Positions 35,641 to 54,315 of a stretch of DNA of 54,315 nt are shown here, one piece after another (the first letter of the stretch is position 1; each line of letters starts with the position of its first letter). The stretch spans positions 1-54,315 of the forward strand of contig PCBK01000090.1 in NCBI GenBank assembly GCA_002731275.1. Direction: 5' to 3'. A program made the translations under genes and the position numbers. The notes under the pieces are model-generated. The model saw nothing but the letters and a program-made list of their open reading frames with translations, had not been told where the DNA came from and did not search any database. This stretch comes from Deltaproteobacteria bacterium. Lineage in GTDB: Bacteria > Myxococcota_C > UBA6777.

Positions 35641-38600
35641 TTATCCTCCAAAGAAACGAACGAGTCTTGAGACAGCGCCTTGTGCGCGGATGTATGTTCG
35701 TGTTGTTGCATCGGAGATGGTCTCAGCGGCCTGAGAAAACTGTCGTCCGACCTCTTTGCCAAACGCGGTGGCTTTCTTCTTCACGTAGGAAGCGGCCTCT
35801 TTGACTTCGTTTCCGACGTATTTGGCATCGGCGAAGTTGATTTTGCCGTCGTCATTGAGATCTACTTTGTCATGTGCCCACTTGCCGGCCTTTTTCAAGC
35901 GGCTGATCGCCGCATCTTTTGCCTCTTTTGCGACACGGACACTCGCGTCAGCAGCGGCTTTTGCATCGGCAAAGTTGATCTTGCCATCGTCATTGATGTC
36001 CACTTTGTCGTGGGCCCACTTACCAGCCTCTTTGGCTTTCGTCGTGACGTACGTTTTGCCTTGCTTGATGGCGCGTCCTGTGGCGTCGATGCCTTCTTTG
36101 GCGAGGTCTCTGACCTGTCCGGCGCCAACGCTGACATCGGTGAAGTCGATATCACCATCTTTGTCGCGGTCTGCGACACGGTGTGCTTGTTTGTTGACCC
36201 AGGCTGCGCCCTCTTTGGCTTTGCCACGGGTCCAGGCGGCAGCGTCCTTGGCCGCGTCGACGGAGGCGTCAATCCCATCATCCACTTTCTCTGCCGTCCA
36301 GCGAGCGCCTTGGGCGATGCCACGTCCAACATCTTGGACACCATCAGCCAATGCATCGGCACCGTCGACGATCGCGTCAGCTGCGATGTCGAGACCTTTG
36401 TCTACAGCCTCCACGACATCCTCTGCCGTGTCTACCACTGCGTCTCCGACGTATCGTGCACCGAACATCAGGTCTCTGGCGGAGAGACGTCCGTCATTGT
36501 TCAGGTCTGCGGTGTCATGCGCGCGTCGTGCGACGTTGCGGGCACCTTGACGAAGTTGTTGGCCAAGCTGACCACGACTCTTTGCGTTCCCTAGTGAGCG
36601 AATGGCTCCACCGATCGCATCAACACCATCTTCAATTGCGTCTCCAACGACCTCAACTCCGTCTTCAATGGCGTCGATGCCGCGGTCGATGCCACGACCC
36701 ACAGCTTGAAGACCATCGCCAACAGCGTCGACACCGTCTTCGATCGCATCACCTACAGCGTTGAATCCACGACCAATGGCGCGCCCTGTGGCGTCGACAC
36801 CATCTTCGATTGCGTCGATGCCGCGGTCGATGCCACGACCCACAGCCTGAAGACCGTCGCCAATCGCATCCACACCATCGTCGAGCACATCGCCGACGGC
36901 GTCTGCGGCTTGTACGGAGCGCATTTGTAAGTCGAGAAGAGAGAAGCGGCCGTTCTTATCGGCGTCGAGTGCGCCGATGATACCATCAGCAGAGGACTCT
37001 ACGATGGTTCCGACACCGTCGATCCCACGTGCGGTTAATGTCGCTGGGTCGTTGAGCGTGAGACGATCATCGTTGTCGATGTCACCGGCTTCCTTGGCCA
37101 TTCTGGCGAGCTTGAGGACATCAACCTCGACTTGTCCGCCGATCTTTCCGCCGACTTTGAGGGCGAGTCCACCACCGAGACCGAGTTTGATCTTGCCTTT
37201 TTCGTAGCTCGCGACAAAGTCCCCTTCGATCCCTGCGCCGATCCAGCCCTCACCGATCGCGCGGAAGGTAAAGATCTTTCCGGCGCCAAGTTCGACCTCT
37301 GCGGTCGTTCGTGCGCCGACGAATGCACCGGCTTGTCCTTCGACGGTGGCTTTGGGAGGCCAGGGAGAGAGCGCGACACGTGCATAGGGTCGTGCATCTG
37401 CGCCGACAAATGCCCGTCCCGTGACTTTGACATGAAGGTCGACGAGCTCACCTGCGATTTCTTTTTGAGGGGACGCGACGATCAGCTCTCCCTCTGCACC
37501 GAGAAGATGAAGTCGTGCGTCTGTCGCGATGGTCGCGTCGACACCTTTGGTCGTGATCCGGGCGTTGCCCATGATCGACGCCCCGGCTTCTGAATAGACA
37601 CGTCCAATCCCAGCAGCACCGACACGTTTGGTGACCTTGGTGCCGCTCTTTGAGGCGTACTCAATCCCGGCCCGTGCGTCGATGCCTTCGGTGACTTGTG
37701 CGAGCGCAATGTCCAGCGGGATCGTGAACGTATCGGCCCAATTCTCTTTCTTGGTGGTTCCTTCTGGGATGATCGGTTGTCCGGTCTTTTTGACGACTTT
37801 GTCTTCGACTTTTTCTGTGCGATGGTACCCGATCCTATTTGTGGTCTCAGTGGTGACACCGTTCTCGGTCTCTTTGGTCCAGTGGTACTCGCTGCCCCAC
37901 TTTTTGTCTGCGCTCGCGGTCGCGTGGGTGTGTGTCAATGAACCCTTATCTCCACCGATGCGAAGCTCTGAGCGGCTGCCGTCTTTGTATCTGCGGGCCA
38001 TCGTGCCTTGCAGATCGACGTCTCCATCTTTGTAGATCAACCCACCACCGATATCCGTGTCTGGATCGACCTTGTGACGAGCGTGTGCGCCGAGGTTAAA
38101 GCGTCCCTTCGCGAAGCCGATGCTGCTGTCCATGTCCGTCTTGTCGTCGAACTTGTGTGTCGTCTTCGAGCCAAAGCTGAGGTCGCCATCTTTGTAACCG
38201 AGGGTGCTGTTGATATTGGTCTTGTCATTGACCTTGTGTTTGGAGGTCGCGCCGAGGTGGAACTTTCCACCGACGAAGCCAAGGTTACTCGTCACGTCGA
38301 GATCGTCGTTGACCTTGTGTGTGGTGTTTGTATCGATCGAGAAGCCTTTGTCTCCAAAGCCAATGTTGCTCTTCAGGTGGGTCTTATCATCGATTTGTGT
38401 ATCGACAGAGCTGTTGACGGTGACTTTGCCATCTTTGATACCGATCTTGTTGTTGAGCTTGGTGTCGTCGTTGAGTTGTGTCCCAAAGTCTGCGTTGACG
38501 GAGACTTTACCGTTGTCAAACTTCACATCACTCTTGACGTTGGTCTTGTCATCGAGCTTTGTGTCGACGGAGCTGTTGATGGTGACTTTGCCGTCTTTGA

Positions 38601-39576
38601 TACCGATCTTGTTGTTGAGTTTGGTATCGTCGTTGAGTTTTGTGTCGACGTCGGCGTTGACTGAGACCTTGCCGTTGTCGAACTTTACATTGCTCTTGAC
38701 GTTGGTTTTGTCATTGAGCTTGGTATCGACAGAGCTATCGACCGTAATCTTGCCGTCTTTGATACCAACTTTGTTGTTGAGCTTGGTGTCGTCGTTGAGC
38801 TTGGTGTCGACATCGGCGTTGACGGAGACTTTACCGTTGTCGTATTTGACGTCACTTTTGACGTGGGTCTTATCATCGATCTGTTTGTCAACGGAGCTGT
38901 TGACTGTGACTTTGCCGTCTTTAACGCTGACATCACCCTTCAGCTTTGTGTCATCATCGAGTTTTGTGTCGACGGAGCTGTTGACGGTGACTTTGCCGTC
39001 TTCGACGCTGACATCGCCTTTGACATTGGTATCGTCGTTGAGCTTTGTGTCGACAGAGCTGTTGACGGTGACTTTACCGTCTTTGTAGCCGACGTTTCCT
39101 TTGAGTTTGGTGTCATCATTGAGCTGTGTGTCGACGTTTGTGTTGACGGAGACCTTGCCTTTATCGTAGTTAACGTCGGTTTTGACGTTGGTTTTGTCAT
39201 CAACCTGTGTGGTGACTTTCCCTTTGGCGGTGAGGTTTCCGTCTTTGTCGTAGTCGAACTTGACATCACCCTTGGATTTTTTGCCAAGGTCCTGTTCGTG
39301 AGAGCCTGTTGCACCGCCAAAACCGTGTCTTTCGGAGGTCCGCTTGCACTCTGCATAGGTCTTAAAGTTTTTGGAAGCGTCGCGTAGACGTCCCCAAAAA
39401 GAAGCAGGTGGCTTAGGTGCTTCGGCTTGGGGAGTGAGGTGAGGGTCGCGAATGTCAGTGGTTGTAGGTTTCGCGACTGGGGCGTGGGTTGGTGATGAGG
39501 TCTTGTTGGTTGTGACATCACCTGTTGTAGGGATATGAGCGGGGATTTGTGTCCCGCCAGTTCGTCGAATTGGCAT
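35641..39576 (-). CDS. Giant protein with 27-residue beta repeats and Ca2+-loop C-terminal region
   Basis: 1311 residues from ATG at 39576 (minus), behind GGAAGGAAC. No signal peptide is visible; the N-terminus is Thr/Pro-rich. From about residue 110 to 500 there are about 15 tandem repeats of 27 residues, e.g. KVSVNADVDTKLNDDTKLNN..IGIKDG, with alternating polarity typical of beta hairpins. A ~300-residue region that is not repeated follows. The C-terminal ~450 residues alternate helical segments rich in AVGDGLQAVGRGIDRGIDAI with six loops such as DINDDGKINFADAK and DLNNDGRLSARDLM, which match EF-hand/dockerin Ca2+-binding loops. I recognise no family. It forms a pair with the TPR gene downstream. 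A secreted or envelope structural protein is one possibility, and no export signal is visible. Confidence 0.7.
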   Translation of the reverse strand: MPIRRTGGTQIPAHIPTTGDVTTNKTSSPTHAPVAKPTTTDIRDPHLTPQAEAPKPPASFWGRLRDASKNFKTYAECKRTSERHGFGGATGSHEQDLGKKSKGDVKFDYDKDGNLTAKGKVTTQVDDKTNVKTDVNYDKGKVSVNTNVDTQLNDDTKLKGNVGYKDGKVTVNSSVDTKLNDDTNVKGDVSVEDGKVTVNSSVDTKLDDDTKLKGDVSVKDGKVTVNSSVDKQIDDKTHVKSDVKYDNGKVSVNADVDTKLNDDTKLNNKVGIKDGKITVDSSVDTKLNDKTNVKSNVKFDNGKVSVNADVDTKLNDDTKLNNKIGIKDGKVTINSSVDTKLDDKTNVKSDVKFDNGKVSVNADFGTQLNDDTKLNNKIGIKDGKVTVNSSVDTQIDDKTHLKSNIGFGDKGFSIDTNTTHKVNDDLDVTSNLGFVGGKFHLGATSKHKVNDKTNINSTLGYKDGDLSFGSKTTHKFDDKTDMDSSIGFAKGRFNLGAHARHKVDPDTDIGGGLIYKDGDVDLQGTMARRYKDGSRSELRIGGDKGSLTHTHATASADKKWGSEYHWTKETENGVTTETTNRIGYHRTEKVEDKVVKKTGQPIIPEGTTKKENWADTFTIPLDIALAQVTEGIDARAGIEYASKSGTKVTKRVGAAGIGRVYSEAGASIMGNARITTKGVDATIATDARLHLLGAEGELIVASPQKEIAGELVDLHVKVTGRAFVGADARPYARVALSPWPPKATVEGQAGAFVGARTTAEVELGAGKIFTFRAIGEGWIGAGIEGDFVASYEKGKIKLGLGGGLALKVGGKIGGQVEVDVLKLARMAKEAGDIDNDDRLTLNDPATLTARGIDGVGTIVESSADGIIGALDADKNGRFSLLDLQMRSVQAADAVGDVLDDGVDAIGDGLQAVGRGIDRGIDAIEDGVDATGRAIGRGFNAVGDAIEDGVDAVGDGLQAVGRGIDRGIDAIEDGVEVVGDAIEDGVDAIGGAIRSLGNAKSRGQLGQQLRQGARNVARRAHDTADLNNDGRLSARDLMFGARYVGDAVVDTAEDVVEAVDKGLDIAADAIVDGADALADGVQDVGRGIAQGARWTAEKVDDGIDASVDAAKDAAAWTRGKAKEGAAWVNKQAHRVADRDKDGDIDFTDVSVGAGQVRDLAKEGIDATGRAIKQGKTYVTTKAKEAGKWAHDKVDINDDGKINFADAKAAADASVRVAKEAKDAAISRLKKAGKWAHDKVDLNDDGKINFADAKYVGNEVKEAASYVKKKATAFGKEVGRQFSQAAETISDATTRTYIRAQGAVSRLVRFFGG

Positions 39577-40278: not shown

Positions 40279-42000
40279 CTACTGTGTTTTGAGGTAGGCT
40301 GCGGCTGCGGTTTGTCGGCTCTCAATGTGTGCCTTGAGGGTCTCGACGGAGTTGTTGAAGGCGGCCGCGTTGCTCAACTGTGTGTATCCTGGTTGTTCAC
40401 CATTTGCACCGACGACATAAGGACTTATCATCGTGTGGACCTCTTTGATCCGCGCGACCAATGTGTCCGTGGCAAATGGTCCCTTCGCGAACTCTTCCAC
40501 GTATTTGTTGTAGGTCTTCCGATATTCAGCATCGGCGATAAGATGACCGAGCAGTGGCCACTGCGCAGCGTCGACGTTGGGAAGACCGAGCTGTGTCGCT
40601 GAGCGCCCTCCCCCTCCTCCGCCACCACCCATATTCATCATCACCATGTTGTGGTCCCAAGAGATCCACTGAATGCGATTGTTATCGCCGGGGTCTGCGT
40701 ACAGATAGTAGTTGTGTGTCATGCTCCCATAAGTGTCCCAGTGCACCATCAAATTGGCCATCGCGATCCAGCGTAGGAAGCGATCCACATTGAAGATCTT
40801 CTCCAGACCTTGTCGCCACGCCGCAGCATCTGAGCGATCAGCCTGAAGGTGCGCGATAAGTGCTTTGACATCGCTCCAATCGGCTTCATCTTCGTTGGTC
40901 TTTTTGACCATATCATCCTGCACAAAGCTCGCGAGTGCAGCACCTGTTCCATCGGGTTTGTAGAGGTTTCCTTTGTGGTTCTTGAATTGCTCTTTGAGCA
41001 TGGGACCATCGGGATCTTCGACGAGCGCATACAGACCAAAGTACTTGGAACCTTCACCGTGGTCGACATAGACTCTGTAGAATGCGACTCTTGCGACGGG
41101 GACGCCTGCTGCTGCGAAGAGTTCACGACCGATCAGATCGCGCATCAACGAGTCATCACTGAATCCATTGTTGAGCACGAGTTTTTTGAAGCCGTAAAAG
41201 CGTTGGTTTTTGATATCAGGGTTGTCGTCTTCAAATTTGTCCATGTTGAGGCGGAAGGGGATCTTGTAGCTTCCGCCCTTCCATGCGGAGCTGAGAGAGG
41301 AGTTACCTTTAAAGCGAATGCCCACATCGTGCCACGCGCGGCCTTCGTAAACGAGTTTCGCGGGGACATAAACAGGATCGCCTGGGATGAGATCGCCACC
41401 GCCACCGGGCTGTCCACCGGGTTGCCCTCCTGGTCGTCCGCTGACCATACACACAACGGCGTTGGCTCTTTGATCTTGGGTGCATGTCCCCTTCGTCGTC
41501 GTACCATTGATGGTGACTTCGCAGGCATCGCCTTCTGCTTTGTCTTTGCAAGCCTGTATCATCGCAGCGGGGTCGACTCCGCCGGGGCCTCCTCCAGGTT
41601 GACCGCCAGGTTGACCTCCAGGCTGTCCATTTCCTGCACCAAAAGTACCTGCGAGATTGGTCATATCATCCATCATCTTTTTCCAGTTCGCTGCGGATAT
41701 AGTGATGTCGATGCGGTGGACTTTTTTGAGTGAGAAGACGGTCTCATAGTCTGGCTCTGCATCTTTCCCGTGTGTCGCTTCGCTCCAGCCTTTCTCATCG
41801 ACAGTGGATGCGTCTGTGACTGTGGGTTCTTGTTGGTTGGGTTCGGTGTTTGGTTCTGTCGTGGACTCTTTTGTTGAAGGTTCTGTGTTTGTCTCTCCAG
41901 TTGTTGCAGGTGAACACCCAACAATTGTTTGGCTCGCGAAGAGCAAGAGGAACAGCGGGAAAAAGAGTATTTTGGCAGGGGATAATGTTCGTATTTCCAT
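40279..42000 (-). CDS. CotH-like kinase-fold lipoprotein
   Basis: 573 residues from ATG at 42000 (minus). The lipoprotein signal ends at TIVGC. A Thr/Glu/Pro/Asn linker (about 30-75) precedes a domain starting at VHRIDITISAANWKKMM. Gly/Gln/Pro repeats (GGQPGGQPGG, twice) and a CDKAEGDAC region interrupt it. The body has the CotH signature: GIRFKGNSSLSSAWKGGSYKIPFRL, LVLNNGFSDDSLMRDLIGREL, HNYYLY and IQWISWDHNMVM. CotH proteins are atypical protein kinases; secreted versions are common in environmental bacteria, and their substrates are mostly unknown. It is convergent with the MerC gene. Confidence 0.78.
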   Translation of the reverse strand: MEIRTLSPAKILFFPLFLLLFASQTIVGCSPATTGETNTEPSTKESTTEPNTEPNQQEPTVTDASTVDEKGWSEATHGKDAEPDYETVFSLKKVHRIDITISAANWKKMMDDMTNLAGTFGAGNGQPGGQPGGQPGGGPGGVDPAAMIQACKDKAEGDACEVTINGTTTKGTCTQDQRANAVVCMVSGRPGGQPGGQPGGGGDLIPGDPVYVPAKLVYEGRAWHDVGIRFKGNSSLSSAWKGGSYKIPFRLNMDKFEDDNPDIKNQRFYGFKKLVLNNGFSDDSLMRDLIGRELFAAAGVPVARVAFYRVYVDHGEGSKYFGLYALVEDPDGPMLKEQFKNHKGNLYKPDGTGAALASFVQDDMVKKTNEDEADWSDVKALIAHLQADRSDAAAWRQGLEKIFNVDRFLRWIAMANLMVHWDTYGSMTHNYYLYADPGDNNRIQWISWDHNMVMMNMGGGGGGGGRSATQLGLPNVDAAQWPLLGHLIADAEYRKTYNKYVEEFAKGPFATDTLVARIKEVHTMISPYVVGANGEQPGYTQLSNAAAFNNSVETLKAHIESRQTAAAAYLKTQ

Positions 42001-42259
42001 GTCATCGTACCTTTTGGGAAATGAATTGTGTTTAAGGTCTCTTGGTACGTGCGCATTTGTTTTGGGTTGTTTCAGATTTTTTTGTATTTTTCTGTTGAGG
42101 GAGTAGGAGGTCCCCTCTTTGGAATGTCGAAACATCGAGGATGATGGGGGTTCAGAAAGAAGGTCTCTTGGGGGAGTTTTGCTGGGAGCAGAAAGCACTA
42201 TCGGGGGACATGAATGCCCCCCAAGCGCGGCTTGCCAGCCTTGCTTTCCCCCTCAGTTG

Positions 42260-42583: not shown

Positions 42584-43567
42584 ATGACAACGAATAAAGT
42601 AAACGCCCCCAAACGAGCACTCAGACTCATGCAGTTGATGACCATTTTGAAGGTTCAGCCTGGCATTACTCCCAGCAATCTTTACGATCAACTTGGCATC
42701 AAAAAAAGTCAGTTTAGCAAAGATAAACAATCTCTTGAAGATATGGGGTTTACGTTCCGGTACGATCGAAGTCAAAAACGTTACGAAATCACAAAAGAGC
42801 CCTTCTTTCCATCGGCAGGGTTGAGTTTTCTTGAGTTGTTCTCACTGATTAGCGCAATCAAGCAAATGAGCGTTAAGGGAGATCATGCACTTTCTGCTTT
42901 TTCGATCGAAGCGATCCGCAAGATGATCGCAGCAACGCAAGATGAACGCACAAGAGAACTTCTTCGCTATGAACTTGAAGACACAACCTTAAAAAAGGGT
43001 TTTGGCTGTCACCCTGATGTCTTAAATTGTCTTTTTTCCGCAACAAAAGAGAGAAAGCGTGTCAAGGTCTTGTACAAGGCTCCAAACGACGAACCCAGAG
43101 AGTTTTTGTTTGACCCCTATGTTGTATTCTTTCGCAAACGTGCACTTTATGTCGATGGATATCGTCCTGATCCTATTGAATACAAAGGGTTCAAAACCCT
43201 TCGGCTTAACAGGATCGAGAGCATCACACAACTACCCTATGGATTCCCTCAGCAAGGTAACTACAACTTTCATGAACGTTGGGAACATGTGTACTATCTC
43301 TTCGGCACAAACACACCACCCACTACGACACGCTTTCGTTTTTCAGCAAAAGCAACCCCTTACATCAAAGAGATACAATGGCACAACAGCCAGTCCATCC
43401 AAAACGAACGTGATGGAGGATGTATCCTGACACTTCATGTCGCTGAACCAAAAGAAGCTGTTCGTGAGTTCATGGAATGGGGAGCTGAGATGGAGGTGCT
43501 TGAGCCAGAAGAACTGCGAATGTGGTATCACGAAGAGCTCCAAAAAATGCTCGCTTTGCATACATAA
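42584..43567 (+). CDS. WYL-domain transcriptional regulator
   Basis: 327 residues. An N-terminal winged helix (RALRLMQLMTILKVQPGITPSNLYDQLGIKKSQFSKDKQSLEDMG, about 10-55) is followed by a WYL domain (about 145-220; KRVKVLYKAPNDEPREFLFDPYVVFFRKRALYVDGY) and a WCX-like C-terminus with AVREFMEWGAEMEVLEP. Family members bind nucleic-acid-like ligands and often control CRISPR-Cas or other defence genes. The gene lies directly upstream of the cas operon, reads in the same direction and is separated from it by a 245-nt region with its own strong promoter. It is the likely regulator of that promoter. Downstream hairpins lie at 43569-43581 and 43620-43633. Confidence 0.85.
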   Translation: MTTNKVNAPKRALRLMQLMTILKVQPGITPSNLYDQLGIKKSQFSKDKQSLEDMGFTFRYDRSQKRYEITKEPFFPSAGLSFLELFSLISAIKQMSVKGDHALSAFSIEAIRKMIAATQDERTRELLRYELEDTTLKKGFGCHPDVLNCLFSATKERKRVKVLYKAPNDEPREFLFDPYVVFFRKRALYVDGYRPDPIEYKGFKTLRLNRIESITQLPYGFPQQGNYNFHERWEHVYYLFGTNTPPTTTRFRFSAKATPYIKEIQWHNSQSIQNERDGGCILTLHVAEPKEAVREFMEWGAEMEVLEPEELRMWYHEELQKMLALHT

Positions 43568-43812: not shown

Positions 43813-44052
43813 ATGAGAAAGCACCCTGAAGAACCAAACATTTACAAAGAGATCCTCGAAAGTTTCATTCAAGAACGCCGCGAAAAAGAACAAATGCGTT
43901 CGTTGAGAGAGGAAGTTGTCTACGAGATGCTTGCCTTGATGATCGATTCAAAGGCTTTTGAGACACACGAACAAAACCAAACAGAACAATTTCTTTTTAC
44001 CCTCATTTCAAATGGAGAGAGTCACAATGAGTATGCACAAGCCATTGACTGA
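43813..44052 (+). CDS. Small acidic helical protein at the head of the cas operon
   Basis: 79 residues from ATG 43813. The 3' end overlaps the large-subunit gene (start 44027) by 26 nt in another frame, so translational coupling is likely. The chain is rich in Glu/Arg/Lys and predicted helical (EEPNIYKEILESFIQERREKEQMRSLREEVVYEMLALMID), with no hydrophobic segment, signal peptide or known motif. I recognise no family. Candidates are a new accessory Cas protein, a regulator or an antitoxin-like protein; there is no evidence for any. Its position directly after the cas promoter, and the overlap, argue that it is a real gene. Confidence 0.5.
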   Translation: MRKHPEEPNIYKEILESFIQERREKEQMRSLREEVVYEMLALMIDSKAFETHEQNQTEQFLFTLISNGESHNEYAQAID

Positions 44053-46426
44053 TTCTGTCACACCAGAGAAAAAACGCTTCCTTAAACAACTCTGTGCCTC
44101 TCTCGTCTTTCAGAAGGCTACCCCCTCAAGTGCCCCAAAGGCGTATGAGTATCTTTCTTACAAGTTCCAACATAACCCCACCTATAGAGCTTGGCTGACA
44201 TCTATTTGCCCCCCAAAAATGCTACGTACCCTTCGTCGATACAAAGGAAGTGACGAAATTCCTGTTTGCCCTGAAACTCCGAAAGGTACATCAATTCGTT
44301 TGTATCGAGCTCCTTCCCCGACAGAGCAACAGGCAAAAATCGCAGCGGATAATGTTGCAGAACAATGGAGCATGTTTCTTGCCGAACGAAACATCCCAAC
44401 GATGCTCGCAACACCAACGCTCTGTGTTGTTTTTGTACCCGAAGGGATGGTTTTTGATGTGGATGAGCTATGGTCTACCTTTCTACGCGAAGATCTCCTC
44501 TCTTTAGGATCTCTGTGTCGTTCTCTGCTCCCTTTACTCAATCTCTCTAAACTCTCCGCACGTGGTTTTTCTGCTCCTGAGATTCTTTTGGTGTCCGGGG
44601 GAATGAGAACGTTTATGTGCGCTTGGTTCTTGCGGACCTATGACTTGGTAAAAGAGCGACTCACCAACCGTCAACACAAGCTTGGGAGTGAAGATCTTTC
44701 TGAGAAGGAGAGAGAAAAACTCCAGGCACTTCAAGACAAAGAAATCGAAAAGTACAACACGCACTTTCAAAGGCGTTGGAAAGCTTTACGCAAAGAGGTT
44801 GACAAGCACCAAGACAAACTCAACAAACAACAAAATAAAATCGACAAGCTCAAAAAACCTTCTGGTAAAAAGTACGAAAAGCTGCTGAAAGAACTCCGAA
44901 GGCTTCAACAGCAGGAACCCTTTCCAAGCTCTGCTTGGTCGAGGTTAAACACTCTCGCGCAAGAGGAACAATTCAACCCCTTTTGCGTCATCGATAAAGA
45001 ACTCAGAGCCAACACAGCGCAATACAAAGAGATCGTACAAACCTCGAAGAAATTTCACAGAAAAGCAGCGGACCAACTGAATCACCCAAGGGGAGACATT
45101 TTCGCGTCCATGTTGGTGGAGTTGCTCAAAGCAGCTAACACCCCCGATGAGGCTTGCTTGCAGACGATTCCATCCATGTTTTCGACACAACCTTTTGCTC
45201 CACCACCTCGTAAAGCTGGAGATTCCCCCAAACAAATCTGCTTTGTATGTGGAGCTTACATGGAAAAAGATGAGCCTTCCTTTGAGCTTCGTCGGATGAT
45301 TTTTACATCTCCTGAACAACGACTACAAGGAAGCCCAAACCCCAAAAAACCCAAGTGTTGTATCTCTTGTGTTACATACGCTTACGTATGTGGCGCAAAA
45401 CCAACGGAAGATACCACGATTATCAAAATCATCCCCAAGAACCAACAAACACAACATTCTGAAGGAGATACTCAGCAGATAGGGCGTATCCTGATCAACA
45501 AGGAGCTTAACATTCAATCAGGTCCTTACCTTCTGTTGGGTTGTAAGGAGTGGTTGTCTGCGAAGGGAGGGTTTAAGCCCGTCTCGGCCTCGGTTGGTGC
45601 CCTTGCCTATGCATATTATCGTATCGCCCGAGACGTACATCCCGCAGCCCTCGAACACATGCAGTTCTTTCTTGTGGAAAGAGGACAAGAGATCCCCCTC
45701 TCCAACACTCGACTGTTCTGGCTTTATGCGTTGCTTCAGGCTTCTGGCCTCTCCATCGAACAACAAGGAAAGCTCTCACTGCCAGTGAGTCAAATCATTC
45801 GTGTTCTTCTTGCTGACGAGTATATCGAATCCCAATACATCGCCGCTAAACACACAACATTACCCACAAGCTTTCCTATGAAAATGGAGGCTTTTTGGCA
45901 CTCCCTTTCCATCATCTTTCAAAAGGAGAAAGATATGTCCACACAAGCAGAAAACAAGCTCTCTGAGATTGAGCTTATTGCTGGTATGACGGGATTACTC
46001 ATCCCGTTTATCAACCTCCTCAAAAGAAAACTCAGCGATAAGGGCAAAAAAGAGAAAGAGATTCATCGCGAGATGGCGAAACTCATTGAAAACTGCAATG
46101 ATCCGTTCCTGTGGAATTACAATTTCGCCTCGCACAAAGAGATCGTTTTCAAAAGCGCAAAGTTGTTCAAAAATTCGGATAGCTACTTCATCTATGAACA
46201 AACCAAACGATTACTCTCCAACCTTCCGCAAGGAATTGACACTGCAGAGAGAGAAGAAGTCAACAAAGAAGGTGCCTCTTTGCAAATCAACTTTGACGAC
46301 GTCCTCGCTTCTTACAACATGTATCTCTCTGATAACCTGAACAGACAACAACGCAAAGAGCTCACAAACAAACTCAAACTCTCTCTCTACAGTCGCTTTC
46401 CATCCGTCTTGAGCCGTTACAAATAG
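44027..46426 (+). CDS. CRISPR large subunit, Csc3/Cas10d- or Cas8-like, without HD domain
   Basis: 799 residues from ATG 44027, chosen over the longer frame because GGAGAG lies 7-8 nt upstream. A coiled, Lys/Glu-rich segment occupies about 215-300. A zinc-finger-like pair follows: CFVCG (about 405) and CCISC (about 444). No N-terminal HD motif and no GGDD are visible. Position (first, before Csc2 and Csc1-like genes), length and the Cys pairs point to the type I-D large subunit or a Cas8 derived from it. It should hold the PAM-recognising end of Cascade. The C-terminal helical part (640-799) seems to be expressed separately as well (see 45935). Naming is uncertain; csc3-like by context. Confidence 0.7.
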   Translation: MSMHKPLTDSVTPEKKRFLKQLCASLVFQKATPSSAPKAYEYLSYKFQHNPTYRAWLTSICPPKMLRTLRRYKGSDEIPVCPETPKGTSIRLYRAPSPTEQQAKIAADNVAEQWSMFLAERNIPTMLATPTLCVVFVPEGMVFDVDELWSTFLREDLLSLGSLCRSLLPLLNLSKLSARGFSAPEILLVSGGMRTFMCAWFLRTYDLVKERLTNRQHKLGSEDLSEKEREKLQALQDKEIEKYNTHFQRRWKALRKEVDKHQDKLNKQQNKIDKLKKPSGKKYEKLLKELRRLQQQEPFPSSAWSRLNTLAQEEQFNPFCVIDKELRANTAQYKEIVQTSKKFHRKAADQLNHPRGDIFASMLVELLKAANTPDEACLQTIPSMFSTQPFAPPPRKAGDSPKQICFVCGAYMEKDEPSFELRRMIFTSPEQRLQGSPNPKKPKCCISCVTYAYVCGAKPTEDTTIIKIIPKNQQTQHSEGDTQQIGRILINKELNIQSGPYLLLGCKEWLSAKGGFKPVSASVGALAYAYYRIARDVHPAALEHMQFFLVERGQEIPLSNTRLFWLYALLQASGLSIEQQGKLSLPVSQIIRVLLADEYIESQYIAAKHTTLPTSFPMKMEAFWHSLSIIFQKEKDMSTQAENKLSEIELIAGMTGLLIPFINLLKRKLSDKGKKEKEIHREMAKLIENCNDPFLWNYNFASHKEIVFKSAKLFKNSDSYFIYEQTKRLLSNLPQGIDTAEREEVNKEGASLQINFDDVLASYNMYLSDNLNRQQRKELTNKLKLSLYSRFPSVLSRYK
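45923..45937 (+). promoter_or_regulatory. Internal ribosome binding site and start inside the large-subunit gene
   Basis: AAGGAG (45923-45928), 6 nt, then ATG 45935, in frame with the surrounding gene (codon 637 of the 799). It is at least as good as the site of any other gene in the operon and lies exactly before the all-helical C-terminal region. Confidence 0.75.
45935..46426 (+). CDS. Predicted Cas11-like small subunit from an internal start
   Basis: 163 residues from the internal ATG, sharing frame and stop with the large-subunit gene. The product would be all-helical (STQAENKLSEIELIAGMTGLLIPFIN at its start), of the size usual for Cas11 small subunits. It is established for several type I systems, including type I-D, that the small subunit is made by internal translation of the large-subunit gene. 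Here that is inferred from the ribosome site and the lack of a separate small-subunit gene. If it is correct, several copies would line the Cascade belly alongside the Cas7 filament. Confidence 0.65.
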   Translation: MSTQAENKLSEIELIAGMTGLLIPFINLLKRKLSDKGKKEKEIHREMAKLIENCNDPFLWNYNFASHKEIVFKSAKLFKNSDSYFIYEQTKRLLSNLPQGIDTAEREEVNKEGASLQINFDDVLASYNMYLSDNLNRQQRKELTNKLKLSLYSRFPSVLSRYK

Positions 46427-46448
46427 AACAAAGAAAGGAACCACAGAC

Positions 46449-47324
46449 ATGTCCACTGGATTGAATACATCAGAAGAAAAACGCGAACACCTCGACATCT
46501 ATGCCATCTTTGAAGGGCCTCAAGAACTCTACTTTGGTGATCGAGTTCAGATCAATGTCAACCTTGTCGAGCAAATCACACTCGAATCCGCAGATGGCAC
46601 ACAGATCAAAAAGTGTTACATCTCTCCAACAAAGCGACGTGGTGTTGAGCGGCGAAGCTTGATTTGGGCACCGACCAACACTGGAGCGTTATTGGGGGAT
46701 GTGAGAGAGTGTGGTATTCCCAAAACATGTGTAAAACAAGATTGTCCGATTTGTGCGATCTATGGGGCGATGGATGCAGGAAATTCGACTCTGATTGGAC
46801 GACTCACACATGGCGGAGGTGTTGCGATCCAAGCTCTTCCCCCTGAAGAGAAGCAGCGTGCAATGCACCCTGCGCTTATCGCAAGAAAGAATGAAGAGTC
46901 CCCCACCCCATTCCGCCGAGAGTACAATGAACCTGGTCTGTTGTACCCTAATTCCAACCACTTTTTGAGTGTAACAGAGAAAGAGTTCACCGCCGGAGCG
47001 TATGCATTTCTCGATTCGTTGGCTCGTGTTGGTGCGGGGAATCCCAAGGGTGTCAAACTCTTCGAGAAAGACAACCAGCCGATGCTCATCGTCGATCGAT
47101 ACCTGAGTCCAATGGGAAAACGTCCGATTCTCTCACCTCACATCTCAGATACAAAACAAGCCATCGAAACCTTCGAGCGGTTAGCAAGAACCGTTCATGG
47201 GAAGCTCTACAAGGAGAACACCATCAAGATGGAGAGATTCGAGCGCAAGATCGGTGATGATGCGCTTGTCTATCTCCAAACGTGTGCAGATCAATTCGTT
47301 CAGGACCATCTTCAGGGCTCATGA
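46449..47324 (+). CDS. csc2: Csc2-type Cas7 backbone protein
   Basis: 291 residues behind an AAAGGA site. Characteristic Csc2 features: RRSLIWAPTNTGALLG, then a Cys cluster CGIPKTCVKQDCPICAIYG (Cys89, 94, 99, 102) that probably binds zinc, followed by a thumb-like loop and ARVGAGNPKGVKL. Several copies should coat the crRNA spacer. Csc2 with a CPxC-IYG motif is the marker of type I-D; this fixes the subtype relation better than any other gene here. The stop overlaps the next start as ATGA. Confidence 0.8.
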   Translation: MSTGLNTSEEKREHLDIYAIFEGPQELYFGDRVQINVNLVEQITLESADGTQIKKCYISPTKRRGVERRSLIWAPTNTGALLGDVRECGIPKTCVKQDCPICAIYGAMDAGNSTLIGRLTHGGGVAIQALPPEEKQRAMHPALIARKNEESPTPFRREYNEPGLLYPNSNHFLSVTEKEFTAGAYAFLDSLARVGAGNPKGVKLFEKDNQPMLIVDRYLSPMGKRPILSPHISDTKQAIETFERLARTVHGKLYKENTIKMERFERKIGDDALVYLQTCADQFVQDHLQGS

Positions 47325-48145
47325 TGTACTGCGTAAAAATAGAGCTACAACCAACAAGCGCAATGACCTTTCGGGTCATTCCAGGCTCCAACTTGGATAT
47401 CGCAACATATCCGTTTTTGCCTCCAACAACGATGTCTGGATACCTCCGAAGAATCGCTATGATGGCTGCAGGAGAGGAGCTTCCAAAGGCAACAGTCGAG
47501 ACGAAAGAAGAGGGAGCGCACTACTACGCGCTTCCCCCTCATCTGCTCACGACAGGCGCGATCCCTATTGGGATGAAGGGTATACACAAGACGCACAGAA
47601 AAGGCCCATCCAACTTCAAACACTTTGGGTTCTCTCAAATTTACCGCAAGAAGATAGACAAGCAGGAAAACATCCAACTGCACACTTGGGAGTATTTCTT
47701 TTGTGAGTCGATGGTGGGTTTTGTGCTCGCAGAATCGAGCGAACACCTTGTGGGTTTCAAAGACTGTGAGGGCTGGGGATGTAAGATCGGAAAGGAAGGC
47801 TATGCTGTCGTTCATTCTGTAAGTGAACCTATTGCGCTCCAACAGGTCCGTTGTGCTGCGACACCTTCCACCCTCCTCTCTCCTGAATCTATCGAGCTAG
47901 AAGATCTGTACCAGCCGATCGAGTTTTATGGTTTGTTCAATTATCAATGGAGTTCGAAGTCTTCGAATATGCCGGGGGGACCAGCAAGCACGCAGCCCTC
48001 ATCGATTGAAGGGTATATTCCGCTCTCCGTCGGGAATCCGGTGTCAGGTGCAACATTCACGCTTGATTACCTCCATGATGGAGAAGATATCTTCATCGCT
48101 TTGTCCTGGATTCAAGCGTTGCAGCGTGGCCTTCCAAAGAAGTAG
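47321..48145 (+). CDS. Cas5/Csc1-like subunit
   Basis: 274 residues from ATG 47321, overlapping the csc2 stop (ATGA); the open frame upstream to 47282 is only the csc2 overlap. RAMP-like features: beta-rich, with a sequence near the N-terminus, TYPFLPPTTMSGYLRRIA, typical of Cas5 proteins, and a Gly/Ser-rich loop towards the C-terminus. Its position between csc2 and cas3 and the size suit Csc1, the type I-D Cas5, which holds the crRNA 5' handle. Cas5 sequences diverge greatly, so the assignment leans on position. Next comes cas3, 14 nt later. Confidence 0.65.
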   Translation: MMYCVKIELQPTSAMTFRVIPGSNLDIATYPFLPPTTMSGYLRRIAMMAAGEELPKATVETKEEGAHYYALPPHLLTTGAIPIGMKGIHKTHRKGPSNFKHFGFSQIYRKKIDKQENIQLHTWEYFFCESMVGFVLAESSEHLVGFKDCEGWGCKIGKEGYAVVHSVSEPIALQQVRCAATPSTLLSPESIELEDLYQPIEFYGLFNYQWSSKSSNMPGGPASTQPSSIEGYIPLSVGNPVSGATFTLDYLHDGEDIFIALSWIQALQRGLPKK

Positions 48146-48159
48146 ACAGGAGCATGATC

Positions 48160-50970
48160 ATGCAACAAACAAATACAAAACGTCAGGTCGGTCGTGTCTT
48201 TTTTCGAACGAAACATACTGATGGTGTCGAGATTCCATACGAAATGGACGTGATCTTACTCGATAGTCATGTCGAGAATGTACACCAACTCGCGAGCTGT
48301 TGGCGTTCATCAAGCAGGCTTCGAGAAGAAGATGGACGAAGTTACCTGTGGGGAGGAAGTCGAGACAATGTTCTCTCCGCAGCAAGAAGACACGATGATG
48401 GAAAACCTGCGAAGTTCAAACTGACTTACAACAACAGAGGTGGTAAAGGTTTTGGCTACTCCTTTGCTGGCCACCGCTTCATCGTGCCGCCCAAAGAGCC
48501 TTATGAAGATGCGCTGATCCGAGGACACCATGATTTCTCTGTCGAAGATATCACGGAGGCCGCATACAGGCTTCAAGAGACACTTAAGGAGACAGATTGT
48601 TCGGACTTACAAGGCCTTGCTGCATTGTCTCCTCAGGCGCTCATGCAACGATACAGAGAAGACCTGTACATTCTTGAGATGTGTGATCAAATCGAAGCTT
48701 CTATAGAGTCTATGTTGCTCGATCATTCGGATCCGAGAAACTTCATGGACTTTTCTCTTTTCCCAAAAGAAGAACCCAAACATTCTCTCTCCGACACCAA
48801 AAACCTCCAACAAATGGAACTATTCTCCCAAGGTAACATGCCAGAAGATGTGCAACATCTCATCGTGGAGCCAGCTTTTTGGGACGGAGAACCACTCATT
48901 GTAGAGGTGAAGTTTGTTACGATAGAGATCCCTCAAGAAGTACAAGACAACCTTTTGAAAGAAATTGGAAAAGGCGAAGAAGAAAAGGCTGCGAGGTTTC
49001 TCAAAAAGCACTTGATGGAGCAACTCGAACAAGCACCGCTACAACACAAGCGTGCATACCTGCACAAGCCGCAAACGTTTTCTCATAAAGAATGCTCGAA
49101 AAATATCAAGGATATCTTGGGTTTTGAGAAGCTCAACCACATGCAAAAAGAGGTTTATGAGAGCGTTGTAGCGAAAGATGATCTCTCCCTTTTACTCCGT
49201 GCACCAACAGGGAGCGGAAAAACGGAGGCTGTGTTGTGGCCTTGCCTTGTCGAACAACGACGTCTGATCCTAGCACTCCCAACCCGCTCGTTGCTTGATG
49301 ACCATGCAGAGAGAATACACGCCATACTCACCCGTGCGGCACTCACGAACCAGCGCACGTACACAATGATCATCGACACTGGAACACAAACGAGGCAACA
49401 GCTTTTCACGCCAGAAGGCCCAAAAGAAGGACATCGACGCCACCTCTATCGCGCCGATGTGATCCTTACAACACTCGATAAATTGATTTACAGGTTTTTT
49501 GGATACCAAGATAAAACCAAGTCTATGATCTTCCCCCACAGGATCGCGCAATCGAATACCATACTCTGTTTTGATGAAGCGCATAGTTATGAAGAAGTTG
49601 CTTGGACCAACTTTCGTAAGTTGATTCGTGCGCTCTATCAGGCAGGACAAGATCTCCTCTTGATGACCGCGACGATGCCTCCCCATCTTCTCGAAGAGTT
49701 CTGCGACCTCGATATCCTCGATTACTGCGAGGGAGAGAAAGGAGCAGTGCTTCTTGAAGATATCAAAACGTATTGTTCACAACGAGGTGAGTGGCACCCA
49801 CAAAAGAAGCTATTTTGGCAAGATGTTCCGTTTGTACAGGATGAAACGCTCACCTCTTTTGAGCAAGAGCAGGCATACGAAGCGACCCTCGCAATGAATC
49901 TTGTGAAACAAACCAAAGAAGCACTCTTTGCACAAAAGCAACGCATCATTGTCGTTACAAATACTGTGGACACAGCGATCGATGTATATAAGTTGCTTCA
50001 AACACACATCACCACCTCGAAGTCCTCCCACGAGTTATTGTTGTATCACGGTAGACTGGCTTCACTTCGATGGGACGAAGGAAAACGCTCTTTAAGCCCT
50101 CGTGCGGAACGTTACAAAAAACTAAAGGGTTTGGATCAACGCCAGGAGGCGTACGTTCTTGTCACAACCCATGCGATTGAGGTGGGTTGTGATCTCGATG
50201 CAGATAAGTTGATCACATCCCTCTGTACTCCTGACGCCCTTATTCAACGTGCAGGTCGATGTAATCGAAAGAACAACACTCAAGATGCCAGTGTCTTGGT
50301 TGTTGGTTCGCACATTCCATCCTACCTGAACAATATGGAAGAACCCCAAAGGCACATGTACCTTACATATCTTCGAGAACACACAGGCTCACAGCTTGAG
50401 GCGAATGCCTTGATGCCCTTTTTGGACAAGGAAGAGGCAGTAGAAGATCCTCGTGTTGTCGAAGGTTTTGATATGCTTTATGAGTATGTATATCGTGGGG
50501 ATATCTTGTACCAACCATTACACAAGAGAGGGATGCTCGCGACAAGAAGTTGGGAGCCTACAGTCACATTCCGATTTTGTGTAGGGGGACGAAGAGATGA
50601 AGTTACCATACCGCTGACGAGATTGCGTTTGCGAAAAGATGAAGAACCTCGTGTCGATCTGTGTGTTCTGGAGAAGGTCTACGATCCAGGACAAGGAAAG
50701 TACGTCGAGCAACCACTCACTCGGGGGAATGCTTACGCTAAAAGAGAGATTATCGTGGAGGTGGTGGATACATGCATGCTTGCGGGAGCGACCCTGGACA
50801 ATTTTGATGAGACTGGATGCTATGATGAAGTTCTTGGGTTGTACGAATTACCACGATTATTCAGGATTTGGAAACAACGCTCCAGCCTGAAGATGTTGGC
50901 GATGTATGTGTCCGAAGAAGGGAAAAAGATCATCCTCGATTTTTTGGCCCCTTACGAATTGGAGGAGTAA
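48160..50970 (+). CDS. cas3: Cas3 helicase with N-terminal HD nuclease
   Basis: 936 residues from ATG 48160 (AGGAG with 7-nt spacing; ATG 48154 is too close to it). The N-terminal ~250 residues contain HD-nuclease motifs: His in DSHVENVHQLA, ARRHDDGK (His-Asp at about 78-79) and RGHHDFS (about 122-125). The helicase part has LRAPTGSGKTEA (about 347-354), DEAH (about 471), LLMTATMP, and QRAGRCNRK (about 695). It should unwind and degrade target DNA after Cascade recruitment. In canonical type I-D the HD sits on the large subunit and the Cas3 lacks it; here it is the reverse. The gene is 3 nt from cas6. Confidence 0.87.
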   Translation: MQQTNTKRQVGRVFFRTKHTDGVEIPYEMDVILLDSHVENVHQLASCWRSSSRLREEDGRSYLWGGSRDNVLSAARRHDDGKPAKFKLTYNNRGGKGFGYSFAGHRFIVPPKEPYEDALIRGHHDFSVEDITEAAYRLQETLKETDCSDLQGLAALSPQALMQRYREDLYILEMCDQIEASIESMLLDHSDPRNFMDFSLFPKEEPKHSLSDTKNLQQMELFSQGNMPEDVQHLIVEPAFWDGEPLIVEVKFVTIEIPQEVQDNLLKEIGKGEEEKAARFLKKHLMEQLEQAPLQHKRAYLHKPQTFSHKECSKNIKDILGFEKLNHMQKEVYESVVAKDDLSLLLRAPTGSGKTEAVLWPCLVEQRRLILALPTRSLLDDHAERIHAILTRAALTNQRTYTMIIDTGTQTRQQLFTPEGPKEGHRRHLYRADVILTTLDKLIYRFFGYQDKTKSMIFPHRIAQSNTILCFDEAHSYEEVAWTNFRKLIRALYQAGQDLLLMTATMPPHLLEEFCDLDILDYCEGEKGAVLLEDIKTYCSQRGEWHPQKKLFWQDVPFVQDETLTSFEQEQAYEATLAMNLVKQTKEALFAQKQRIIVVTNTVDTAIDVYKLLQTHITTSKSSHELLLYHGRLASLRWDEGKRSLSPRAERYKKLKGLDQRQEAYVLVTTHAIEVGCDLDADKLITSLCTPDALIQRAGRCNRKNNTQDASVLVVGSHIPSYLNNMEEPQRHMYLTYLREHTGSQLEANALMPFLDKEEAVEDPRVVEGFDMLYEYVYRGDILYQPLHKRGMLATRSWEPTVTFRFCVGGRRDEVTIPLTRLRLRKDEEPRVDLCVLEKVYDPGQGKYVEQPLTRGNAYAKREIIVEVVDTCMLAGATLDNFDETGCYDEVLGLYELPRLFRIWKQRSSLKMLAMYVSEEGKKIILDFLAPYELEE

Positions 50971-50972
50971 AT

Positions 50973-51806
50973 ATGCCAGCCGCTTTTATCGTCGAGTGTG
51001 TCTCGGCAAATGAGAAGGGGCTTGATCCCCAAAAGCTACGTATGAGACAGTTGCAAGGTGCATTTTTGGAGGCGGTACGTCGTGTTTCACCAGAACAAGC
51101 CCACCAACTTCACGAAGGGAGTCAGGAGAAGCCCTATACTCTCGGTTTGATGGAGCGTATGTCTCAGAAAAGAGGATTCATCAAACGCTTTCAGTTTCGT
51201 GTGACGTTATTGGATGATGCATTCTTTCCGTTGGTGTTGCAATTGCAGGCGACAACACATGATGAACCTCTGATGCTCGGAAAGCAGCCCTTTAAGATAC
51301 AAAGCATTCATACAGGAACAGGTCACTACGCAAAGTGGACAGGATTTTCGCCGTGGTCGAAGCTCTTATCTGACGCTTCAACTCAGCATATCGTTCATTT
51401 GAGGTTGGACACCCCTGTCAGCTTTCGTCAGAGCCAGAAGGAGAAAGGAACGCGGCTTGAGATGCCGCTCCCTCTCCCAGAACTTGTATTGGGAAGTGCG
51501 TTGCGTAAGTGGCAATTGTGGTCGGGCGAAGTGCTTGATGAGGAGCTTCGAAAGTATCTTTCTTCGGCCATTGAGATTACTTGGCCATTTTCTCTAGAGA
51601 GCCATGAAGTGGAGTTTCATATAAGAGGCACAACAAGGCGAGTTGTTGGCTGTACAGGGCAAATAACGTACAGGCTTCATCACAAACAAATACCAAAAAC
51701 AGTCCTTCAGCAGATGAACGCGCTGGCAAGTAGTCTTTTTTACACAGGAGCAGGTGTCAGGACAGCGTTTGGCATGGGGCGTCTTTGTCAGATAGAGCAA
51801 CCATAG
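50973..51806 (+). CDS. cas6: Cas6 crRNA endoribonuclease
   Basis: 277 residues from ATG 50973, 2 nt after the cas3 stop, with GGAGG at 50961-50965 as an ideal ribosome site. The chain shows two RAMP-like halves and ends with the Gly-rich loop YTGAGVRTAFGMGRL typical of Cas6. Active-site His is not certain: candidates lie in the first half (HQLHEGS, THDEP, HTGTGHY). It should cut each repeat after the CTCC/GGAG stem, giving an 8-nt 5' handle ATTAAAAC. The 25-nt gap to the cas1 remnant has no room for a missing N-terminus. Confidence 0.82.
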   Translation: MPAAFIVECVSANEKGLDPQKLRMRQLQGAFLEAVRRVSPEQAHQLHEGSQEKPYTLGLMERMSQKRGFIKRFQFRVTLLDDAFFPLVLQLQATTHDEPLMLGKQPFKIQSIHTGTGHYAKWTGFSPWSKLLSDASTQHIVHLRLDTPVSFRQSQKEKGTRLEMPLPLPELVLGSALRKWQLWSGEVLDEELRKYLSSAIEITWPFSLESHEVEFHIRGTTRRVVGCTGQITYRLHHKQIPKTVLQQMNALASSLFYTGAGVRTAFGMGRLCQIEQP

Positions 51807-51831: not shown

Positions 51832-52170
51832 ATGAAAAAATCGATGGCATTTTTGACTGAACAAGGTCGGTATCTTGGACGATTGGAACCGGCATTTTCG
51901 AAAAACTGTTTTTTGAGAGAGGCGCAGTACAAGAAGTCTTTTTCCGAAGAGAAAAGTCTTGAGGCAGCTCGTTGTATCATCGGAGGTAAGCTCGCCAATC
52001 AAAGAACGTATCTGGTTCGAGGAAACCGAACTCGTCGCACTGAACGTCTTGGACATGCGATAAAAAAACTCAAAATGATGGAGCGAAAGCTTTGCACGGT
52101 GGACAACATCCCTTCTCTTTTGGGATTTGAGGGAACTGCGAGTTCATTTTACTTAAGTGAGTCACTATGA
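51832..52170 (+). pseudogene. cas1: Cas1 remnant, central fragment only
   Basis: 112 residues (ATG 51832, no ribosome site visible). It aligns to the middle of Cas1: MAFLTEQGRYLGRL, then FLREAQY, ARCIIGGKLANQRTYLVRGN, and LLGFEGTASSFYL, the last containing the first catalytic Glu of the family. Cas1 is normally about 300-340 residues. Here the first ~60 residues and the last ~170, which hold the catalytic His and second acidic residue, are missing. The stop overlaps cas2 as ATGA. This is either a degraded gene or, less likely, a maintained mini-protein. Spacer acquisition by this copy should be impossible. No Cas4 is found in the locus. Confidence 0.8.
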
Positions 52171-52445
52171 TGTTTTTTGTGATTTCTTACGACGTGAGCG
52201 ATGACAAGCGCAGAACGCAGATCCACAAAGCGCTTAAATCATTTGGTTTGTGGGTGCAGTATAGTTTGTTTGAGTGCGAGCTGAGCAAATCTGATTATGT
52301 CAGGCTTCGAGAGAGGCTGGAAGCGTTGAGCAAACCGGAGGAGGATAACCTTCGCTTCTATAAACTTTGTCAGGTGTGTCAGGAGACTGTAGAGAGAATA
52401 GGTGAAGATCCTCGCCTTGATGAGTTTGGCATCTTCATAGAATGA
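52167..52445 (+). CDS. cas2: Cas2 adaptation protein
   Basis: 92 residues with the ferredoxin-like Cas2 fold: MMFFVISYDVSDDKRRTQI (YDVSDD contains the conserved Asp), GLWVQYSLFECELS and a final FGIFIE strand. The size is typical and the frame is intact. It overlaps the cas1 remnant by ATGA. In functional systems Cas2 bridges two Cas1 dimers; with Cas1 reduced to a fragment, Cas2 is unlikely to support adaptation unless another Cas1 is supplied in trans. Confidence 0.88.
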   Translation: MMFFVISYDVSDDKRRTQIHKALKSFGLWVQYSLFECELSKSDYVRLRERLEALSKPEEDNLRFYKLCQVCQETVERIGEDPRLDEFGIFIE

Positions 52446-52806: not shown

Positions 52807-54315
52807 CTTCCCACCCCAACGTCGCTCCAACGGAGATTAAAACAACGACGGAATCAAAACACTCGCACTCTGTAAATTCTTCCCACCCCAACGTCGCTCC
52901 AACGGAGATTAAAACATCGGTGCCATCAACTTTGACGCTGCCCCTATGGTCTTCCCACCCCAACGTCGCTCCAACGGAGATTAAAACCATTTTGCACCGC
53001 TCTCCTCTGCTACCTTTTTGATTCTTCCCACCCCAACGTCGCTCCAACGGAGATTAAAACCGCAAAAAACACGAGTCCCTGTTTTTGCTTTCCCCGGACT
53101 TCCCACCCCAACGTCGCTCCAACGGAGATTAAAACAAGCAGATTGCAAGCGTTCCAACCCAAGAAGGGAGAGTGTACTTCCCACCCCAACGTCGCTCCAA
53201 CGGAGATTAAAACATATCACGACCTCGCCAAAAAATCAGGAACGACCGCTCTTCCCACCCCAACGTCGCTCCAACGGAGATTAAAACGATCCTTACGTGG
53301 AAGATCCTGAGAACTTCTGCTTGCTTCCCACCCCAACGTCGCTCCAACGGAGATTAAAACACCTCCCTCACACCCTCACATCAAAAAAAATGCATCTTCC
53401 CACCCAACGTCGCTCCAACGGAGATTAAAACCATCGTGTAGGCGATGGAAGTTGGAAGCACTTCAAGCTTCCCACCCCAACGTCGCTCCAACGGAGATTA
53501 AAACCCCAAACATACGAAACCGGTTCCAGGCCACCGGCGCACTTCCCACCCCAACGTCGCTCCAACGGAGATTAAAACTTGATCGGAGAGAGGGGACAAT
53601 CTCTTACGATGGCCGCAATCTTCCCACCCCAACGTCGCTCCAACGGAGATTAAAACAAAGAACTCGGCGGAATACCCGTAAAGTTAACCCTATCCTTCCC
53701 ACCCCAACGTCGCTCCAACGGAGATTAAAACACACGCCAGAGTACGCGCTGTTGACGCCACACGGCTTCCCACCCCAACGTCGCTCCAACGGAGATTAAA
53801 ACAAGACGTTCATCGTCAATCACAATAAATCGTTCGCTTCCCACCCCAACGTCGCTCCAACGGAGATTAAAACTACACGCCAGATGGCAATTACGCTGCC
53901 AAAATCGAAGAGCTTCCCACCCCAACGTCGCTCCAACGGAGATTAAAACCGAGAGGAATTCATCATACACAACCGCCCCTGAACTTCCCACCCCAACGTC
54001 GCTCCAACGGAGATTAAAACTGTGAGACGCGAGTGAAGCGCTCGGATCGTTCGATCCTTCCCACCCCAACGTCGCTCCAACGGAGATTAAAACACACACT
54101 GTGCACACAACCTTACTCTCGGCTCCCCAAGCTTCCCACCCCAACGTCGCTCCAACGGAGATTAAAACGAGCAACTGCTTTGCAAGCTCTTCCCCAAACC
54201 AGGGGCTTCCCACCCCAACGTCGCTCCAACGGAGATTAAAACGCCCAAAAGTCTCAGGTCGTTGATGCTCTGGAACTTCCCACCCCAACGTCGCTCCAAC
54301 GGAGATTAAAACTCC
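52807..54315 (+). CRISPR. CRISPR array, 21 repeats in window, continues past the end
   Basis: Repeats of 37 nt start CTTCCCACCCC and end GGAGATTAAAAC. First 52807-52843, last 54276-54312, 21 in all, with 20 complete spacers of 33-41 nt, all different. The last 3 nt belong to the next spacer, so the array runs past the window. Repeat 9 (53396-53431) lacks one C and is 36 nt. The repeat contains a CTCC-AAC-GGAG stem directly before ATTAAAAC, so Cas6 cutting below the stem would leave an 8-nt 5' handle. This fixes the plus strand as transcribed, in the same direction as the cas genes. The array repeats are almost identical, so it is probably not ancient debris. Confidence 0.98.

Follow-up and report, generated by a model that had tools for sequence, protein, structure and literature searches.

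The window analysed here, a contig of 54,315 nucleotides from a deltaproteobacterium (assembly GCA_002731275.1, contig PCBK01000090.1), carries a CRISPR-Cas operon whose proteins point to different type I subtypes, raising the question of where such a system belongs. A preliminary description had noted a Cas7 resembling Csc2 of type I-D, a rare subtype in which the HD nuclease forms the N-terminus of the large subunit Cas10d, alongside an HD nuclease that instead resides on Cas3, and had proposed a distinct variant or an intermediate between I-D and other type I systems. The coordinates and motif readings of that description proved correct on re-examination (Table 1), with Cas3 being 938 amino acids in length, as did the gene order large subunit-cas7-cas5-cas3-cas6-cas1-cas2, save that 'cas1' is a piece of 112 residues. 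The description of this order as mixed, and hence as a sign of chimerism, was not upheld, in that haloarchaeal and some cyanobacterial I-D loci, such as that of Pseudanabaena ABRG5-3, likewise read large subunit-cas7-cas5-cas3. Further upstream in the window, a 1311-amino acid protein (35641-39576) was found to contain numerous near-identical repeats (KVTVNSSVDTKLNDDTKL...), after which come stretches bearing DxDxDG-like motifs, and a 639-amino acid ORF (40279-42198) bears, by eye, a possible CotH-type resemblance.

Table 1. Features of the CRISPR-Cas locus, with positions numbered from the first nucleotide of the window
Feature	Position	Strand	Evidence
WYL-domain regulator, upstream of operon	42584..43567	+	Pfam WYL 2e-10, WCX 6.7e-17
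Large subunit, 799 aa, without HD, four-Cys zinc finger	44027..46426	+	PADLOC PDLC01527 'Cas8b' 1.5e-120; PDB fold match 7sba_I
Predicted Cas11 small subunit, 163 aa, nested in large-subunit gene	45935..46426	+	Internal ATG after AAAAGGAG
Cas7, Csc2-like, 291 aa	46449..47324	+	Foldseek 4txd 6.7e-6, 7sba_A 1.3e-5; 19-residue four-Cys knuckle
Cas5, canonical N-terminal motif TYPFxPPTxxSGxLRR	47321..48145	+	PADLOC PDLC01389 3.6e-78
Cas3, 938 aa, HD nuclease (~1-205) fused to helicase (~320-760)	48154..50970	+	Pfam Cas3 C-terminal 5.2e-22, DEAD 1.2e-16
Cas6, from ATG 50973	50973..51806	+	Pfam Cas6 5.5e-13; best PADLOC model Cas6d 2.3e-25
cas1 remnant, 112 aa, both ends missing	51832..52170	+	Pfam Cas_Cas1 4.3e-22, model positions 59-162 of 283
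Cas2	52167..52445	+	Pfam Cas2 1.4e-24; best PADLOC model Cas2d 3.3e-35
CRISPR array, 21 repeats of 37 nt, spacers 33-41 nt, reaching window end	52807..54312	+	

A search for the same gene order in other genomes, recommended in the preliminary description, demonstrated that the effector order large subunit-cas7-cas5-cas3 recurs in 17 related loci from several phyla, with cas6 following wherever it was detected. Cas7 homologues were retrieved by tblastn from Thermus megaplasmids (46-47% identity) and Picosynechococcus plasmids (55%), and further loci came to light in a genome scan, in Poribacteria, Binatia, Tectomicrobia, cyanobacteria, a deltaproteobacterium and Calidithermus. The lineage is uncommon, being present in 4 of 111 Deinococcota and 6 of 386 cyanobacterial genomes, and two scans of viral contigs returned no relatives. 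A WYL gene lies upstream of the operon in most relatives as well, and likewise in some I-D loci; a position directly upstream was seen both for I-D operons (L020 and L021) and for operons of the window lineage.

The 'type I-B' (cas8b5) system on pTT27 of Thermus thermophilus HB8 and HB27 shares with the window the WYL gene, the effector order and an HD-helicase Cas3, but its cas4-cas1-cas2 genes are intact and in the opposite orientation, whereas the window has no cas4 and a fragmentary cas1; the repeats of the two also differ. On the plasmids of Picosynechococcus PCC 8807 and PCC 73109 a WYL gene again adjoins the operon, and the gene order is that of the window with the addition of cas4 (large subunit-cas7-cas5-cas3-cas6-cas4-cas1-cas2). 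These plasmid loci are unlike the window in having WYL on the opposite strand, a cas3 split inside the helicase and a full-length Cas1.

Alignment of Cas3 from the window and its 17 relatives showed that the HD motifs reported in it are real and constitute a full HD active site, with H39, H80-D81, H125-H126 and D178 identical in all 18 sequences. The large subunit had been described as lacking both HD and GGDD motifs, and this was borne out: no conserved set of His/Asp residues was present among the 18 aligned large subunits, and GGDD was absent from that of the window and from the invariant columns of the 18, so that the large subunit is not the Cas10 with a GGDD cyclase motif that marks type III. 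The same alignment step, applied as a positive control to eight I-D Cas10d proteins, recovered H81, H115, D116, K119 and D210 as invariant, of which H81, H115, D116 and D210 are the published Cas10d HD residues (PMC9123187), and the negative result for the large subunit, on which the preliminary description had staked its reading, is therefore meaningful. HD and helicase are fused in six loci (the window, L003, L006, L008, L009 and L019), ten loci (L005 and L010-L018) encode HD as a separate gene directly before the helicase gene, and in two (L004 and L007) cas3 is broken inside the helicase. Within this family HD and helicase join and part, but in none of the loci does the large subunit carry the HD. 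The two breaks inside the helicase (L004:13700-16407 and L007:10250-12984) fall at nearly the same site in distant members, and may represent a natural split or a frameshift.

Sequence and profile searches of PDB chains yielded no related match for Cas7, the large subunit or Cas5, and the effector proteins of the window went unmatched by the Cas7 and Cas8 models of Pfam and NCBIfam. When these three proteins were compared with the I-D and I-B/I-C families using hhalign, all results were below detection save for a short Cas5 motif; Cas7 gave an E-value of 0.033 (1.5% probability) with Csc2 and 0.51 with Cas7b/c, and the large subunit one of 0.58 with Cas10d, though these negatives are weak evidence because the alignments were shallow. 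A comparison with type IV Csf2 found no Csf2 members in the genomes searched.

In a Foldseek search of the PDB, the AlphaFold model of Cas7 (pLDDT 74) matched Csc2 (4txd) and the I-D chain 7sba_A at the E-values given in Table 1, with nothing further better than 1e-3, whilst VIA-align returned a Z-score of 13.3 over 235 residues for 7sba_A, tied with that of an I-E Cas7 (13.2). The zinc knuckle pattern C..C....CPxCxx[YF]G, which in the window includes the noted CPIC-IYG, occurs in 18 of 18 Cas7 sequences of the family; the knuckle, which spans 19 residues and closes with CxxCxx[YF]G near residues 87-101, is carried by both families (six of nine Csc2 proteins fit the pattern), and the four-Cys knuckle is absent from canonical Cas7b/c sequences. 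For the large subunit, the structure prediction previously suggested as a check gave a model (pLDDT 83.5) whose only PDB match under an E-value of 0.001 was I-D Cas10d (7sba_I; 6.7e-4 over 994 columns), the next best match having an E-value of 1.2, although VIA Z-scores were low (5.7 for Cas10d against 5.3 for the Cas8 of an I-B CAST). The residues invariant among the 18 large subunits include C405, C408, C445 and C448, the CxxC pairs of a four-cysteine zinc-finger pattern. Both fold and knuckle thus sustain the assignment of Cas7 to the Csc2 type, and the I-D likeness of Cas7, as well as that which the large subunit may have, is invisible to sequence-profile comparison.

PADLOC, by comparison, calls the effectors Cas8b, Cas7b and Cas5b of type I-B, with E-values for the first and last as in Table 1 and of 5.6e-112 for Cas7. 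The models concerned (PDLC01527, PDLC01388 and PDLC01389) define a lineage with the order WYL-large subunit-cas7-cas5-cas3-cas6, to which the window conforms and which is also seen in L003, L004 and others; a survey of Thermus likewise lists WYL-cas8b5-cas7-cas3-cas6 (PMC5529391). The window locus is hence a new member of an already catalogued lineage, albeit one of doubtful classification. A Cas7 profile better than Csc2, which the preliminary description held would count against its reading, does exist in the form of PDLC01388, but this model matched none of 14 control genomes, among which the Pfam Cas7 model matched T. maritima and H. volcanii, and it appears to be private to the lineage of the window. 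Its failure to match any control genome means that the 'I-B' label is not evidence of I-B ancestry. The lineage formally lies within the 'I-B' bin of the libraries, though its Cas7 was not recognized as a canonical Cas7b by Pfam, NCBIfam or hhalign and carries the knuckle that Cas7b/c lacks.

The identification of the third effector gene as csc1 was not supported, with the N-terminus of the protein displaying the canonical Cas5 motif (TYPFxPPT..G.L), unlike that of Csc1, and hhalign returning an E-value of 0.0011 for I-B/I-C Cas5 (over a short motif) and 0.12 for Csc1; a Csc1-type Cas5 thus appears to be lacking. Cas6 and Cas2, on the other hand, had I-D types as their best PADLOC models. In a Cas1 tree, I-B Cas1 was cut off at 100/100 and two lineage members fell inside I-D cyanobacterial clades, the Picosynechococcus copy being sister to Synechocystis Cas1d (95/89) and that of Cyanothece grouping with two I-D Cas1 proteins (100/100). 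The Cas1 of the lineage interleaves with that of I-D, not I-B.

The cas1 previously placed in the operon of the window is present, but merely as a piece from the middle of the protein that overlaps the start of cas2 and is the sole Cas1 match in the 10.75-Mb assembly, and no cas4 ORF was found between cas6 and cas2 or elsewhere in the operon. Because cas1 is a fragment, spacer acquisition has probably been lost in this genome, if the assembly is right; the latter is approximately 95% complete, such that a second cas1 could be missing from view. The 21 repeats of the array are near-identical, and comparison of its spacers with phages gave a match at chance level only (E-value of 0.5). The Cas1 ORFs of six poribacterial loci (L011, L012, L013, L014, L016 and L018) were observed to be 545-572 amino acids in length, which would suit a Cas4-Cas1 fusion.

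The operon showed no separate cas11 gene. Of the 18 large-subunit genes, 12 have an internal start codon with a strong Shine-Dalgarno sequence within one 12-column alignment window, some 150-170 codons ahead of the stop; no other window held such starts in more than 2 of 18. Several of these 12 loci are close relatives (Poribacteria), whereas the copies from our window, Thermus, Cyanothece and the Binatia/deltaproteobacterial members are far apart. Since production of Cas11 by internal translation is established for types I-B, I-C and I-D (PMC10212523), the internal start, which in the window is the ATG at 45935, is predicted to encode a Cas11 of 163 amino acids.

Set beside type I-D (Synechocystis pSYSA and haloarchaea), the lineage shares the Csc2-type Cas7 fold and knuckle, a Foldseek match of the large subunit to Cas10d, I-D-like Cas1, Cas2 and Cas6, the WYL regulator, the order of the archaeal loci and an internal Cas11 start. 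It is unlike I-D, where Cas10d bears the HD and Cas3' is a helicase only; in the present lineage the HD belongs to Cas3 (in the window as a fusion with the helicase), and Cas5 does not seem Csc1-like; as these defining features were sought and not found, the lineage cannot be filed as I-D. With canonical I-B (Cas8b/Cas7b/Cas5b/Cas3) it has in common an HD-less large subunit, an HD on Cas3, the canonical Cas5 motif and a TTC PAM, usable in its Thermus member, but canonical I-B has a Cas7 without the zinc knuckle, to which no profile match was obtained, and a Cas1 that forms a separate clade. We consider it probable, and the most economical account, that this is a mosaic type I lineage in which Cas7, the large subunit and the adaptation genes are closest to I-D, whereas Cas5 is canonical and the HD-Cas3 ordinary. 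Weighing against this reading are the absence of a profile match to I-D, the tied VIA score of Cas7 and the low one of the large subunit, the canonical look of Cas5 and HD, and a Cas3 helicase that in its tree (below) stands apart from both I-D and I-B/I-C. The original proposal of a variant or intermediate is supported in part, by the Csc2-like Cas7, by Cas10d being the only significant fold match of the large subunit, by the HD on Cas3 and by the recurrence of the gene order, but the lineage had already been catalogued, as I-B. More tentatively, and with a little less than an even chance of being correct, the cas8b5 lineage might be regarded as a separate type I subtype, having a Cascade derived from I-D in which the Cas10d-like large subunit has lost its HD and an HD-Cas3 is used. 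If true, this would make it a living form of a step between I-D and other type I systems, in which both fused and split HD-helicase forms have been kept.

It is unlikely that the system is simply a divergent type I-B with Cas8b, Cas7b, Cas5b and an ordinary Cas3, whose likeness to I-D stems from shared Cas7/Cas10-superfamily ancestry alone. The very strong PADLOC scores, the naming of the Thermus system as I-B in the literature (PMC5529391, PMC10989782), the resemblance of Cas5 and HD to canonical type I proteins and the tie between CAST Cas8 and Cas10d in the VIA scores all agree with such an origin, yet the PADLOC Cas7 model recognizes no canonical I-B control, the Pfam and NCBIfam I-B models for Cas7 and Cas8 fail to match, Foldseek ranks Csc2 and Cas10d first, Cas1 groups with I-D and canonical Cas7b/c has no zinc knuckle. 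In a published model, other type I subtypes arose from an I-D-like ancestor whose large subunit gave up its HD nuclease to the helicase (PMC10212523), and the lineage, in which an I-D-like Cascade is accompanied by an HD located on the helicase or next to it, constitutes a natural test of this model. That the lineage is itself a genuine intermediate in evolution, its Cas3 helicase having acquired the HD of an I-D Cas10d, would account for a Cas10d-like large subunit without HD, for an HD beside or fused to the helicase and for the co-occurrence of split and fused forms in one lineage, but is less likely still. HD-only profiles placed the lineage HD closer to canonical Cas3 HD (E-value of 6.8e-5) than to Cas10d HD (0.01), and direct derivation from Cas10d is not favoured. 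In the Cas3 helicase tree I-D and I-B/I-C each formed one clade at 100/100, with the lineage between them and joined to neither; the tree is unrooted, so that the direction of change is unreadable from it, and the mosaic is accounted for just as well by modular recombination.

A decaying or repurposed locus, one that has ceased to acquire spacers and perhaps draws on old ones only, would be compatible with interference by a mosaic system, and is an appreciable if somewhat doubtful possibility. The cas1 remnant, the lack of cas4 and the lack of a confident spacer match to phages speak for it; the effector genes and HD residues are nonetheless all intact, the repeats have remained near-identical, and the assembly is incomplete to the extent given above.

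The gene content, conserved HD residues, fold matches, internal start and Cas1 relationships observed here allow a course of interference by the mosaic system to be proposed. Cas6 would cut the repeat transcript below a small hairpin, leaving an 8-nt tag (ATTAAAAC), a step that rests on the Cas6 family and not on the fold of the repeat, because the hairpin was no more stable than those of shuffled sequences. The crRNA would then be carried by a filament of Csc2-like Cas7 capped by the canonical-type Cas5, whilst the HD-less large subunit and copies of Cas11 from the internal start may read the PAM and hold the R-loop. The separate HD-helicase Cas3 would presumably then be recruited, to nick and shred the DNA.

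In T. thermophilus HB27, the 'type I-B' repeat in combination with a TTC PAM cut transformation by >99.5% and enabled genome editing (PMC10989782). This repeat flanks a locus homologous to that of the window, and DNA interference therefore works in one relative; by homology to this active system, the window locus very probably serves in type I DNA targeting with an HD-Cas3. The activity and genetic tractability of the HB27 copy make the HD-transfer model testable in that organism. These results also suggest that two dissimilar kinds of effector are grouped under the I-B label of annotation libraries, with consequences for the prediction of PAM, Cas11 and Cas3 in such systems. The deposited HB27 cas3 (L064:10642-13091) consists of two overlapping ORFs though the system is reported to be active, possibly due to a sequencing frameshift.
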